From assembly GCA_040754375.1 (NCBI GenBank), contig JBFMCT010000004.1:1-64000 (forward strand): a stretch of DNA of 64,000 nt, written 5' to 3'. The DNA is from Actinomycetota bacterium (GTDB lineage: Bacteria; Actinomycetota; Acidimicrobiia; Acidimicrobiales; AC-14). Positions 56,154-61,140 of the stretch are shown here, piece by piece. Position numbers and translations under genes: made by a program. The notes under the pieces were generated by a model. That model saw only the letters and a program-made list of their open reading frames with translations, searched no databases and was not told the origin of the DNA. Numbering within the stretch: position 1 is the first letter of the stretch; each line of letters begins with the position of its first letter.

Positions 56154-56945
56154 ATGACAATCCGCGTTGGCGTGTTCGGCGCCGGGGGCAGGATGGGCTC
56201 TCTCGTGTGCCGCACGGTGGCCGACGACCCCAAGCTGCAGCTGGTGGCAGCCATCGACCCCTTGCACGAGGGCCTCGACCTGCGGCGCATCACTGGAGCC
56301 GACGTGCCCGGGGTACGCATCTCGTCCGACGCCGAGGCCCTCGATCTGGCCGGGGCCCAGGTGGCCGTCGACTTCACCCACATCTCGGCCGCCCGCGAGA
56401 ACCTGGCCTGGTGCGCGGCCCACGGCGTGCACGCGGTGGTGGGGACGACGGGGTTCCTGGCCGACGACTACGACGACCTGCGGGCGCGGTTCACGTCCTC
56501 GAACTGCTTCGTGGCCCCCAACTTCGCCATCGGGGCAGTGCTGATGATGCGCTTCGCCGAGCTAGCCGCCCGCTACTTCGAGACGGCCGAGATCATCGAG
56601 CTCCACCATGACCAGAAGGCCGACGCCCCCTCGGGCACGGCCATGCTCACGGCCGAGCGGGTGGCGGCCGCGTCGTCGGAGTGGGCTCCCGACCCGACCG
56701 TCAACGAGGTGGTCGAGGGGTCGCGGGGAGGCCAGGCGGCCGGGGGTATACGGGTGCACGCCGTACGCCTGCGGGGCCTGGTGGCCCACCAGGAGGTGCT
56801 GTTCGGGACCATGGGCCAGAGCCTGTCGATCCGCCACGACTCCTACGACCGCAGCTCGTTCATGCCCGGGGTGCTGCTGGCCGTGAAGTCGGTCGCCGAC
56901 CGGCCAGGGCTTACGATCGGCCTGGACGCCCTCATCGACATCTGA
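56154..56945 (+). CDS. dapB: 4-hydroxy-tetrahydrodipicolinate reductase
   Basis: A 263-residue NAD(P)H-dependent enzyme of lysine and peptidoglycan precursor synthesis. VGVFGAGGRMGSLVCR is the nucleotide fold, and ELHHDQKADAPSGTA is the catalytic signature. AVDFTHISAARENLAW and FVAPNFAIGAVLMMRFA fit the family. Its partner dapA lies 4.3 kb downstream, with unrelated genes between. Confidence 0.96.
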   Translation: MTIRVGVFGAGGRMGSLVCRTVADDPKLQLVAAIDPLHEGLDLRRITGADVPGVRISSDAEALDLAGAQVAVDFTHISAARENLAWCAAHGVHAVVGTTGFLADDYDDLRARFTSSNCFVAPNFAIGAVLMMRFAELAARYFETAEIIELHHDQKADAPSGTAMLTAERVAAASSEWAPDPTVNEVVEGSRGGQAAGGIRVHAVRLRGLVAHQEVLFGTMGQSLSIRHDSYDRSSFMPGVLLAVKSVADRPGLTIGLDALIDI

Positions 56946-56977
56946 CGGCCGGCCCCGGCCGGCGAGCAAGGGGGAAC

Positions 56978-58408
56978 ATGGTCACGGCCAGCCTCTACCG
57001 CCAGCTCGTACCGGCGGCACCCCTCCACCGCCGCACCGACCGGGATACCTATCCCAGTCCCGAGGCCGAGCTCCGGGCCCGGCTGGCGGCCCGGCTGCGC
57101 CCACCCGACGCCCGTCCCCGTCTGCGGGCGCCGACGCTGGTGTCCTCCTGGCAGGGGACCATCGACGGCCTGCTGATGGCCTTCCCGTCTTGGGGCGTGG
57201 CCGACCCTGCCCTGGCCGCCGCCTACCGGTCGGTGATCACGTCGATGCCGACGGGCACCGAGTTCGTGGTCGTCCACCACCGGGCCCAGCGGGCCTCCGT
57301 CGAGGGGTGGTTCGCCGAGGCCGGCCACCCGGCAGAGAACGTGATCTACGTGCCGCTGGCCGACTACGTCAACTTCACCGACTGGGCCGAGGACGCCTAC
57401 GCCTCCGTTCTCGACGGGGTGGACGGCTCGCTCTGCCTGATGGAGCCGTGGGAGTTCCCCCGCGGGGGCGACGCGCTCATCGCCGAGGCCGTGCAGGACC
57501 ACACCGGGGTACGCGCCGGCCAGGCTCCGCTGATCTTCCAGGGCGGCAACTGCCTGGTCGGGGACCGGTTCTGGCTGTTGGGCAAGGACTACTTTGCCGA
57601 CAGCCTGGCCCTGGTGGACGGGGAGCGCCCCCCGGTGCTCGCTCCGCCCTCGACCGCGCCCGGGGACTTCGTGACGAGCCTGTACGCCGACTACCTCGAC
57701 GCCGGCCGGGAGCTGGTCGTGGTGGGCACCGATCGGCCCATCGCCCTGCGCGAGCTCTACGGCACCCGCCAGGGCGACGATTACTTCCTCGACATCGCGG
57801 CCGACGGAGCCGGTACCTACCAACCGATCTTCCACATCGACATGTTCCTCACCCTGGCCGGCCCGGCCCCGGGCCCCGGCGGGCGGTTCCGGGTGCTCGT
57901 CGGCAGCCCGGCGGCCGCCGACCGGGCGCTCGGGACGCAGTCACCGTTCGCCCTCGACGACGTCTACGACGCGGTCGCCTCCGGCCTCGAGGGGCTGGGG
58001 ATGGAGGTCGTGCGCAACCCGCTCGTCCACCGGCCCGAGCTGGGTGCCACGTTCACCCTGGCCGAACTGAAGGCCATGGCCGCCCGGCCCGGCAACCAGG
58101 TGTTGCTCGAACCGCTGGCCGAACTGGCGGCGGCCGGGGCCGTCGACGGCTCGGCCGTGCGCGTGCGGGCCTGGCACCACGTCACCTGGAACAACTGCCT
58201 GGTCGAGGCGGGCACCGACCGGCGCCGGGTCTACCTGCCGACGTTCGGCCACCCGCCCGACGACGACCTGGCCCCCCTCGATGCCGCCATGGCCGACCTG
58301 TGGGCCGGGCTGGGCTTCGAGGTCGTGCTGCTGGGCGACTTCAACCCGTTCGCCCGTCGCCAGGGTGTGGTGCACTGCATCACCAAGTACCTGCGGCGGG
58401 GGGCCTGA
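56978..58408 (+). CDS. Guanidine-modifying enzyme (agmatine deiminase/amidinotransferase fold)
   Basis: A 476-residue enzyme. QGGNCLVGDRFWLLGKDYF, PIFHIDMFLTLAG and VVHCITKYL match the His-Asp-Cys catalytic layout of the amidinotransferase/peptidyl-arginine-deiminase superfamily, with Cys in the HCIT motif as nucleophile. It is longer than usual agmatine deiminases. A ribosome-binding site (AAGGGGGAA) lies just before the ATG at 56978. Agmatine or a peptidyl-arginine substrate is possible; the sequence does not decide. Confidence 0.75.
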   Translation: MVTASLYRQLVPAAPLHRRTDRDTYPSPEAELRARLAARLRPPDARPRLRAPTLVSSWQGTIDGLLMAFPSWGVADPALAAAYRSVITSMPTGTEFVVVHHRAQRASVEGWFAEAGHPAENVIYVPLADYVNFTDWAEDAYASVLDGVDGSLCLMEPWEFPRGGDALIAEAVQDHTGVRAGQAPLIFQGGNCLVGDRFWLLGKDYFADSLALVDGERPPVLAPPSTAPGDFVTSLYADYLDAGRELVVVGTDRPIALRELYGTRQGDDYFLDIAADGAGTYQPIFHIDMFLTLAGPAPGPGGRFRVLVGSPAAADRALGTQSPFALDDVYDAVASGLEGLGMEVVRNPLVHRPELGATFTLAELKAMAARPGNQVLLEPLAELAAAGAVDGSAVRVRAWHHVTWNNCLVEAGTDRRRVYLPTFGHPPDDDLAPLDAAMADLWAGLGFEVVLLGDFNPFARRQGVVHCITKYLRRGA

Positions 58409-58432: not shown

Positions 58433-59299
58433 TCACGGCCGGTCGCCGGTGCCTTCGGCCGGTTCACCGGGGCCGCCGGCCGCCCCCAGTTCGTCGATGT
58501 CCTTCATCGACATGTCCGTCTTGCCCTGCACTCGTCCGAGGATGACCGAGAGGGTCACGAGCACGATGCTGATGGTTGTTGTGGCCACGATGTTGCGCTC
58601 GAAGAACCCGACGAGGGCCTCGACGGGCGAGGCCACCACCTCGCCGAAGGCCTTGAGGGCGAGCACGGCCGTCAGCGTGCCGGCCACGTTGAGGGCCAGG
58701 AAGACCCTGAACCGCATGCGCACGACACCGGCCAGCGCGCACACGACGGCCCCGGGGAAGAAGAAGACGGCCGGGAAGGCGGCCCGGCGGAACAAGCGCT
58801 CCATGAGCCGGGCGTAGTCCTGAAGGCCGGCCTTGACCTCCAGCCAACGTACGGCAGCATCGCCGTAGTAATAGCCGAGCAGGTAGTAGAGGGGGTCGGT
58901 CAGCAGGCGCCGGAAGGTGGCCGCCAGCACGAACGGGATGAGGTCGACCTCGCGGGCCAGGATCAGGTTGCGGTTGCGGGCCTCGAGGATGATGAGCAGC
59001 AGGGGGTGCTTGGCCGCGAGGGCAGGCGTGAGCGCGGTGGTGACCGTCCCCACGATGGCCAGCACGACGATGGGCGCCACCAGCAGCACCAGCTTGCGCC
59101 GCGACAGCTTGGGCCGTTCGCCCTCGCCCTCGCCCTCGCCCTCGCCCTCGCCCTCGCCCTCGCCACCCTCGGCCCCCTCGACGGCCGCGGTGGCCTCGGG
59201 ACGGGTTTGGCTGACGTCCCCGGCGGCCCCGTCCTGGGGCCCAGCGGTGGCCGCCGTCGCTTCCTGTTCGTCCTCGGCCGGTTCGGTCAGCTCGTCCAC
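58433..59299 (-). CDS. DedA/VTT-like membrane protein
   Basis: A 288-residue membrane protein. The N-terminal 65 residues are acidic, with an alternating Gly-Glu run encoded by a 6-bp tandem repeat. About four to five helices follow, with RRLLTDPLYYLLGYYYGDAA and AVFFFPGAVVCALAGVVRMR, then RVFLALNVAGT, which recall DedA/VTT-domain proteins (lipid transporters). The last helix ends near ILGRVQGKTD. The GTG at 59299 is chosen before the acidic region; upstream the frame is open but unlikely coding. Confidence 0.65.
   Translation of the reverse strand: MDELTEPAEDEQEATAATAGPQDGAAGDVSQTRPEATAAVEGAEGGEGEGEGEGEGEGEGERPKLSRRKLVLLVAPIVVLAIVGTVTTALTPALAAKHPLLLIILEARNRNLILAREVDLIPFVLAATFRRLLTDPLYYLLGYYYGDAAVRWLEVKAGLQDYARLMERLFRRAAFPAVFFFPGAVVCALAGVVRMRFRVFLALNVAGTLTAVLALKAFGEVVASPVEALVGFFERNIVATTTISIVLVTLSVILGRVQGKTDMSMKDIDELGAAGGPGEPAEGTGDRP
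59119..59160. repeat. 6-bp tandem repeat (seven copies)
   Basis: CGCCCT is repeated seven times in a row (a partial eighth follows), encoding the Gly-Glu run on the minus strand. Copy-number changes would stay in frame. Confidence 0.9.
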
Positions 59300-59369
59300 T
59301 CGGGGTGCGACGCTACGTGGCCGCAAGCCTGGGCGTGGAGCAGGCCGGTGCGGAAGGGCGTGAACGACG

Positions 59370-59523: not shown

Positions 59524-60624
59524 GTGAAGCCCCTCGCCGCCGCCTCGCGCGCCGCACTCGTCGCCGGTGGCGGCCTCGTGCTCTACCAGGTCGTCCGCCA
59601 GCAGGGCCGGATGATGCTGCGCATCGACGAGCTGGAGCGCCTGCTCGGGGTGGGCGGGGGAGCGCGTGACGGCCACATCGGGCACGTGGCCCACGGCAGC
59701 CAGGCTGTCGGCACGCCCGTAGGCCTGCCCGTCGGGTCGGCTCTAGAGCCGTTCACGCTCCCCGATCTTGACGGCAACGACGTGGCTCTGGAGAGCTTCC
59801 GGGGCCGCCAGGTGCTGGTCGTGAACTGGAGCCCCACGTGCACGTTCTGCGACCGCATCGGCGCCGACCTGGCCGAGCTCGAGCCCCGGTTGGCCGAGGC
59901 CGGGACCGCCATGGTCCTGCTGGCCCACGGTGAGGTCGAGGCCAACCGGGCGCTGGTCGAGCGCTACGGGCTGAAGTCCCCCGTGCTCATGCTCGGGGAG
60001 GCCAACCCCGCCGGGTTCCAGTCTCTGGGTACCCCGAGCGGGTTCCTGCTCGACGCCGACGGAAAGGTGGCCACCACGCTGGCCATCGGGGCCGACCAGG
60101 TGCCGCTCCTGGCCAACGACGTGGCCGACGCCGGAGGCCCCGGTGGTGGCGAGAAGCGCCTGCGGGGCATGCGCAACCTGAGCGAGAGCCGGCTGGTGCG
60201 CGACGGGCTGAAGGCCGGTACCCCCGCCCCTCCGTTCACCCTGCCCGACCTCGACGGCCACCCCGTCTCGCTCGAGGACTTCAAGGGACGCCGCGTGCTG
60301 CTGACGTTCAGCGCGCCCGACTGCGGCCCGTGCGACACCCTCGCCCCCGAGCTGGTCCGCATCCACCGCGACCACGCGGCCAACAACCTCGCGGTGGTGA
60401 TGGTCGGCCGCGGGGATGTGGACGAGAACCGGCAGAAGGCCGAGAAGTTCGGCATGGAGTTTCCGGTAGTGCTACAGGAGGGATGGAAAGTTTCCCGTGA
60501 CTACGGGATCTTTGCCACGCCAGTCGCGTTCCTCATCGACGAACACGGTACGATCACGCACGACGTCGCCACTGGCGTAGAAGACATCCTGGCGTTGGTC
60601 CCAGCGGCGGGCGGGACCGAGTAA
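59524..60624 (+). CDS. Membrane-anchored tandem thioredoxin-like protein
   Basis: A 366-residue protein. An N-terminal helix (LAAASRAALVAGGGLVLYQV) is followed by two redoxin/thioredoxin domains. The first (residues 75-200) has CTFC at 106-109 and the second (residues 220-360) has CGPC at 267-270; both contain a TPS or TPVA cis-Pro segment and start PFTLPDLDG. This is like MauD/TlpA-type disulfide proteins, but doubled. The GTG at 59524 is the best start. The Cys-rich Tat protein gene follows 21 bp later. Confidence 0.88.
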   Translation: MKPLAAASRAALVAGGGLVLYQVVRQQGRMMLRIDELERLLGVGGGARDGHIGHVAHGSQAVGTPVGLPVGSALEPFTLPDLDGNDVALESFRGRQVLVVNWSPTCTFCDRIGADLAELEPRLAEAGTAMVLLAHGEVEANRALVERYGLKSPVLMLGEANPAGFQSLGTPSGFLLDADGKVATTLAIGADQVPLLANDVADAGGPGGGEKRLRGMRNLSESRLVRDGLKAGTPAPPFTLPDLDGHPVSLEDFKGRRVLLTFSAPDCGPCDTLAPELVRIHRDHAANNLAVVMVGRGDVDENRQKAEKFGMEFPVVLQEGWKVSRDYGIFATPVAFLIDEHGTITHDVATGVEDILALVPAAGGTE

Positions 60625-60645
60625 GGGCGGCAAGGGAGGCATCTG

Positions 60646-61140
60646 GTGGGTACAAGCGAGCGGTTCGACTCGGTGACGCGCATCCTCGGTAGCGGGATGT
60701 CGCGGCGCAAGGCCATCAAGTACGCCCTGGGCGGGGCGATGGGCCTGGCCAGCACGGGCGCCGTCATCGCCGTCCAGCAGGGCACGGCCGGGGCCCAGTG
60801 CAACCCCGGGTGTGGGGTCGACCAGCAGTGCTGCACGACCAACGTGTCGCCCGCCGCCCCGTTCTGCGCCCCCGACACCGCTCAGTGCTGTGGCAACCAG
60901 GCCTGCCTGCCTCCCCAGCAATGCTGCACCACCGCGGTGCCCAACTTCTGTGCACCGCCCGACTGGGCGGCCTTCTGCTGCGGCCGGTTCGCTTGTGTCA
61001 TCGGCGTCACCCAGTGCTGCACCACCGGCACCGAGCCCCACTGCGAGCCGGCCAGCTTCACGTGCTGCGGCAACACCTCGTGCGGTCCCGGCTACGTGTG
61101 CCAGGGATACCCCTCGCCCGGGGTGTGCGTCCCGGTTTAG
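60646..61140 (+). CDS. Tat-exported cysteine-rich protein
   Basis: A 164-residue protein. MSRRKAIKYALGGAMGL (from residue 18) is a twin-arginine signal ending near GTAGAQ. The mature part of about 110 residues has 22 Cys in three repeats built of QCCTT, an FC or HC, and CCGxxxC. It resembles the Tat-exported, disulfide-rich methylamine dehydrogenase small subunit in layout, though not clearly in sequence. GGGAGG lies 6 nt before the GTG. It is adjacent to a tandem thioredoxin-like protein. Function unknown. Confidence 0.8.
   Translation: MGTSERFDSVTRILGSGMSRRKAIKYALGGAMGLASTGAVIAVQQGTAGAQCNPGCGVDQQCCTTNVSPAAPFCAPDTAQCCGNQACLPPQQCCTTAVPNFCAPPDWAAFCCGRFACVIGVTQCCTTGTEPHCEPASFTCCGNTSCGPGYVCQGYPSPGVCVPV

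Follow-up and report, generated by a model that had tools for sequence, protein, structure and literature searches.

Two adjacent genes of the window, the 64,000-nucleotide stretch of DNA that was analysed (the start of contig C4, in a genome of 3.5 Mb), are probably a dedicated pair for maturation in the manner of MauD/MauE and MauA, in which a membrane-anchored tandem redoxin would serve a Cys-rich client unrelated to MauA. The preliminary description had likewise proposed an oxidative-folding pair whose substrate is not a MauA, and this proposal is now supported by the genomic context, by the recurrence of unrelated Cys-rich neighbours and by the likeness to mau loci in gene order and leader. 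The features of the two genes are as follows.

59524-60624 (+): tandem redoxin, MauD-like, membrane-anchored, 366 aa, GTG start
59539-59595 (+): N-terminal membrane anchor, then a conserved juxtamembrane RQQGRxxLRIxELE
59731-60138 (+): redoxin domain 1, CTFC at 59839-59850
60178-60231 (+): inter-domain linker LSESRLVRDGLKAGTPAP, recognisable in L003, G610 and Caballeronia (see below)
60205-60603 (+): redoxin domain 2, CGPC at 60322-60333
60646-61140 (+): client with Tat signal and 22 Cys, export predicted, 164 aa, GTG start
60646-60795 (+): client leader with FD motif (60664-60669), twin arginine (60703-60708), h-region and predicted cleavage between AGA and QC (leader alignment A4)
60799-60867 (+): Cys unit 1, C-x3-C-x5-CC-x10-C
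60886-60951 (+): Cys unit 2, CC-x4-C-x5-CC-x7-C
60976-61044 (+): Cys unit 3, CC-x4-C-x6-CC-x7-C
61063-61128 (+): Cys unit 4, CC-x4-C-x5-C-x8-C

The upstream gene had been described as encoding, from GTG 59524, an anchored protein with two thioredoxin-type domains. In agreement with this, AhpC-TSA/Redoxin was matched twice in the product (Pfam 2.4e-34 and 6.4e-29, two stretches each), with CTFC in the first domain, CGPC in the second and a cis-Pro-type GTP/ATP segment after each CxxC; in relatives, the CTFC is replaced by CGFC or CSFC. The anchor is only weakly hydrophobic (Kyte-Doolittle 1.36), whereas that of the homologue L003 is a clear transmembrane (TM) helix (3.29), and it carries 3-4 Arg on its C-terminal flank. 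Against the MauD model TIGR02661 the protein scores 63.7 bits, below the curated cut-off of 188.6, and the redoxin of G610 scores 72.4 bits.

The client gene starts 21 bp after the redoxin stop, at GTG 60646, with GGGAGG six bases upstream of the GTG. Its leader combines the twin arginine, h-region and AxA cleavage site expected of a Tat substrate (SRRKAIKYALGG...AGA, then QC), an arrangement conserved in L003. All 22 Cys lie past residue 51, within about 114 residues, and in 2000 base shuffles of the open reading frame the mean was 4.6 Cys and the maximum 14. The Tat signal, the 22 Cys and the 21-bp gap had all been noted before and stand, whereas the three CC-type repeats noted with them do not: the spacing resolves into four units (5+6+6+5), with Cys at positions 52, 56, 62, 63, 74; 81, 82, 87, 93, 94, 102; 111, 112, 117, 124, 125, 133; and 140, 141, 146, 152, 161. 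An AlphaFold model of the client, built on two sequences, shows serial short beta strands, with block pLDDT of 69-88 in the mature part and a leader of low confidence. We infer that the mature client would be small and rigid, built of repeated beta-hairpins stapled by disulfides, and would act outside the membrane.

The structure and profile searches called for by the preliminary description returned no relative. The client is without match in Pfam, NCBIfam, PHROG, PADLOC and PDB, and Foldseek with the model gave no similar solved structure, so that assignment to a known PDB fold was rejected. Assignment to MauA was rejected as well (no match to PF02975, the profile of the methylamine dehydrogenase light chain, HHalign probability 2%, with Paracoccus denitrificans MauA as control matching PF02975 at 2e-53); a BLASTP value of 2e-4 against MauA, obtained over the Cys motifs and without composition correction, was not counted as homology. 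STIG1 was likewise discarded, as the client has no match to PF04885, a family that the client of genome G049 matches at 3e-9.

The density of Cys, 22 in about 114 residues and including CC pairs, would also suit an exported, metallothionein-like protein that folds around metal in the cytoplasm, where Tat cargo usually folds, with the redoxin controlling its thiol state. We regard such a metal-binding client as very unlikely in view of the regular CC-x4-C-x5/6-CC-x7-C spacing and the predicted serial-hairpin fold, and because the clients of other tandem redoxins described below (STIG1, phospholipase A2) are disulfide types and not metal stores.

Both genes have a close counterpart in one other genome, the Acidimicrobiia MAG nzgw83 (G003, locus L003), which is the nearest relative with the pair and belongs to the same family but another genus. 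Identity is 71% for the redoxin and 68% for the client, with 22/22 client Cys kept, and the flanking genes are retained too: dapB and a VTT protein upstream, dapA and rnj downstream. Codons of the two loci differ at 19-21% of positions 1+2 and at 48-49% of position 3 (2.4-2.5 times as much), and this third-position excess in both genes indicates protein-level constraint on both. When 60 relatives and the genomes of the order (298) and the class (395) were searched, the 22-Cys protein was found only in G003; no homologue was found on plasmids, and the other weak matches resemble Cys-composition noise. The full redoxin at high identity is likewise confined to G003, so that the pair is present in both genomes having either gene in full, which bears on the question of co-occurrence raised in the preliminary description. 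Judged from these sequences, both genes are real, constrained and inherited together, and the exact client is rare.

The limitation of the exact pair to two genomes of one family counts against a dedicated maturation pair and would accord with a general envelope thiol enzyme beside a merely adjacent Cys-rich gene. Such a chance neighbourhood is nevertheless disfavoured and highly improbable, given the 21-bp spacing or overlap of the genes, the conserved leader and the way the arrangement recurs, with clients of unrelated kinds, in distant taxa.

This recurrence emerged from a wider search that used the redoxin alone, and not the client, as query. In G610, from another class, an orthologous tandem redoxin with a similar linker is followed by a Tat protein whose 22 Cys are differently spaced. 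In the betaproteobacterium Caballeronia sp. NK8, a tandem redoxin with 42% identity and the linker LDQSRLNRSGLKAGTPAP directly precedes a Tat Cys protein with the leader NQFDEWTKAVARRPSRRKTLQ. Fusions of MauE to two redoxin domains extend the series: that of G049 overlaps by 4 bp the 5' end of the gene for a Tat protein with 47 Cys and STIG1 domains (and an MXAN_6577-like match below cut-off), that of G069 overlaps a Tat phospholipase A2 gene (PF06951, 1.3e-13), and that of the Rubrobacter-like genome G734 (L084, 174-2292) adjoins a 45-Cys frame interrupted by a stop codon and by the end of the contig, with tatA and a tatB-like gene downstream of the fusion. In a further Rubrobacter-like genome, G849 (L088, 4033-6700), tatA and tatC follow the tandem redoxin. 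Every neighbouring Cys-rich protein whose start can be seen is Tat-tagged. The domain order of the MauE fusions is the reverse of that in the window redoxin, with CGPC/CGAC first and CGFC/CGWC second. A single MauD gene in G712 also precedes a Tat protein, with 10 Cys. Two Streptomyces MauE-redoxin matches had no called Cys-rich gene at their loci; these two records and the Caballeronia plasmid have no genes annotated at the matched region.

With an automated rule for Cys-rich neighbours (a called gene within the stored flank, with 8 Cys or more and a Cys content above 4.5%), 4/7 tandem loci scored positive compared to 1/35 generic redoxin loci (hypergeometric p ~ 0.0015, calculated by hand), in a small tandem sample (n=7) that counts the window pair as one of the seven. 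The sole positive among the 35 generic loci is, by sequence, a NapC/NrfH-like cytochrome. The clients at L005, L084 and L128 were missed by the gene caller and are plain in the reading frames, bringing the tandem loci to 7/7. The pattern suggests that tandem redoxin genes may be a reusable helper for disulfide formation tied to Tat export.

Several observations were made at these and related loci. The Tat phospholipase A2 of G069 (L086, 6742-7524) is a group XII-type enzyme, and this genome falls within the window's order. On contig C23 of G610 (L173, 1627-3532), a 25-Cys protein that lacks a clear Tat signal lies between a MauE and a MauD-like redoxin. At L161 (4298-5322), L120, L123 and L126, MauD and/or MauE adjoin Tat 10-Cys proteins with RCC...DCC...GYC motifs, which are MauA-like by eye, have no Pfam match and are possibly distant MauA relatives. 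A PqqD-redoxin fusion in G001 (L007, 5978-7270) precedes a Cys-rich protein with a Tat signal, HprK-like and nucleotidyltransferase-like genes being part of the same run, and a similar fusion in G196 (L039) lies near a Gly-rich RR-signal protein.

The client leaders share a further feature with MauA. An FD lies 13-15 residues before the twin arginine in the clients of the window, L003, G610, Caballeronia and G049, with LD at 14 in G069, and canonical MauA leaders have FD in 3/4 and ID in 1/4, the latter at 17. Of the ten tandem-redoxin clients and MauAs whose start is visible, eight carry FD and all ten [FLI]D. Among other Tat-like proteins at the examined loci, about half a dozen of which have an N-region long enough for the comparison, none has FD and one has ID (L123, adjoining MauE). 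FD is lacking in the clients of G001 and of the MauD/MauE loci in G712, L120 and L126, and in the Thermoleophilia-like clients, and the motif therefore marks a subset. As a stand-alone detector the leader profile A4 was discarded, since beyond its training rows it matches ordinary RR regions only; its one full-length weak match, in G748, falls in a region where neither a Cys-rich nor a redoxin gene was called.

These features place the pair close to the P. denitrificans MauE-MauD-MauA system, which matures methylamine dehydrogenase, in that an anchored MauD-type redoxin lies immediately 5' of a Tat-signal Cys-rich gene; mauD directly precedes mauA in 4 annotated clusters, and the gene order in the window is identical. 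MauD and the window redoxin have a juxtamembrane RQxGxLxxR in common, and MauA and the client an FD-x(n)-SRR leader. However, MauD has one redoxin domain and the window protein two, the client differs from MauA in its 22 Cys and its lack of a PF02975 match, and unlike mau clusters the pair has no mau enzyme, mauG or mauE alongside. MauE is fused to the redoxin in G734, G049 and G069, and a MauE-redoxin pair is located on contig C31 of the window genome. As van der Palen reportedly found in 1997, the mauD and mauE genes of P. denitrificans are required for a stable small subunit. The client also resembles STIG1-like and MXAN_6577-like proteins in its CCG..C..G..CC style repeats, but matches neither PF04885 nor NF041328. 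TlpA, ResA and CcmG share with the window redoxin the redoxin fold with CxxC, and the window redoxin is set apart from them by its tandem domains, the opposite charge balance of its anchor and its Cys-rich Tat neighbour.

In the proposed mechanism, the tandem redoxin would form or correct up to 11 disulfides of the client, the CTFC and CGPC domains plausibly splitting the work with one oxidising and the other isomerising or relaying; the MauE-redoxin pair on contig C31 could provide oxidant in trans, and the client would exit the cell by Tat. We infer a physical interaction of redoxin and client, recognition via the leader and, since generic redoxins can be reductants, also the direction (oxidase, isomerase or reductase), which we take to be oxidising. 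A tandem redoxin that instead keeps the client Cys reduced, or reduces the client outside the cell in the manner of CcmG/ResA, would be in keeping with ResA as the top subfamily score (5.7e-31, below cut-off) and with CGPC being the thioredoxin active-site sequence. We consider a reductase unlikely, as the relatives include MauE fusions, their clients are of known disulfide-dependent types (secreted phospholipase A2, STIG1 repeats), and no CcdA or cytochrome c gene was seen next to the tandem redoxins, whereas some generic TlpA genes do have such a neighbour.

For the oxidative pair, the side of the membrane was considered from the charges flanking the anchors. MauD-type proteins (window, L003, G610, Caballeronia, G712 and four canonical MauD) have 0-1 Lys/Arg before the TM segment and 1-4 after it, whereas in most generic ResA/CcmG types whose N-terminus is visible, 2-6 such residues precede it. 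The MauE fusions have a positively charged loop behind TM1 and a positively charged CxC loop, and the segment after the last TM is positive in G734 and G069 and less so in G599. By the positive-inside rule, this pattern predicts a location on the cytoplasmic face for MauD, the redoxin domains and the CxC loop of MauE. Tat requires folded cargo, for some cargoes with disulfides included (PMC6708511), and this need, the predicted siting and the linkage to tat genes together imply that disulfides may precede export. Counting against oxidation before export, some Tat exports are oxidised afterwards by ordinary periplasmic enzymes (PMC6907408). Action of the redoxins at the cytoplasmic face before export is the weakest element of the model, and we put it forward tentatively on the strength of the charge pattern. 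Equally doubtful at present is the wider proposition that MauD/MauE-type modules could be widespread client-swapping machinery, making cytoplasmic-face disulfides before Tat for clients chosen by the FD leader.

CyDisCo, an engineered cytoplasmic disulfide formation that feeds Tat export, may be a functional analogue in placing disulfides before Tat transport (PMC6708511); it differs from the window pair in being engineered from Erv1p and PDI, and the cytoplasmic siting of the window redoxin is a prediction. If true, a cytoplasmic-face version would be a natural counterpart of CyDisCo plus Tat, and the insertion of disulfides before Tat transport in some bacteria becomes testable. As noted by decRiPPter (PMC7794033), candidate RiPP clusters of Streptomyces also include some with MauE/MauD and no further mau genes. 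VKOR (PF07884) was detected in 0/6 genomes, G000 included, with controls detected; if the model is true, MauD/MauE genes would be a module of general use in the export of disulfide-rich proteins by bacteria whose genomes have no detectable VKOR. To our knowledge, these maturation genes have so far been tied to one quinoenzyme, and our literature search found no paper describing the pairing of a tandem redoxin with a Cys-rich client. The leader and the redoxin are a possible tag and helper for making disulfide-rich proteins.

Upstream of the pair, the VTT-domain membrane protein of the window (58433-59300, minus strand; match below cut-off) has a Glu-Gly dipeptide run near its N-terminus, and the gene at 56945-58408 (+), between dapB and the pair, gives a weak arginine-deiminase (PAD) match.
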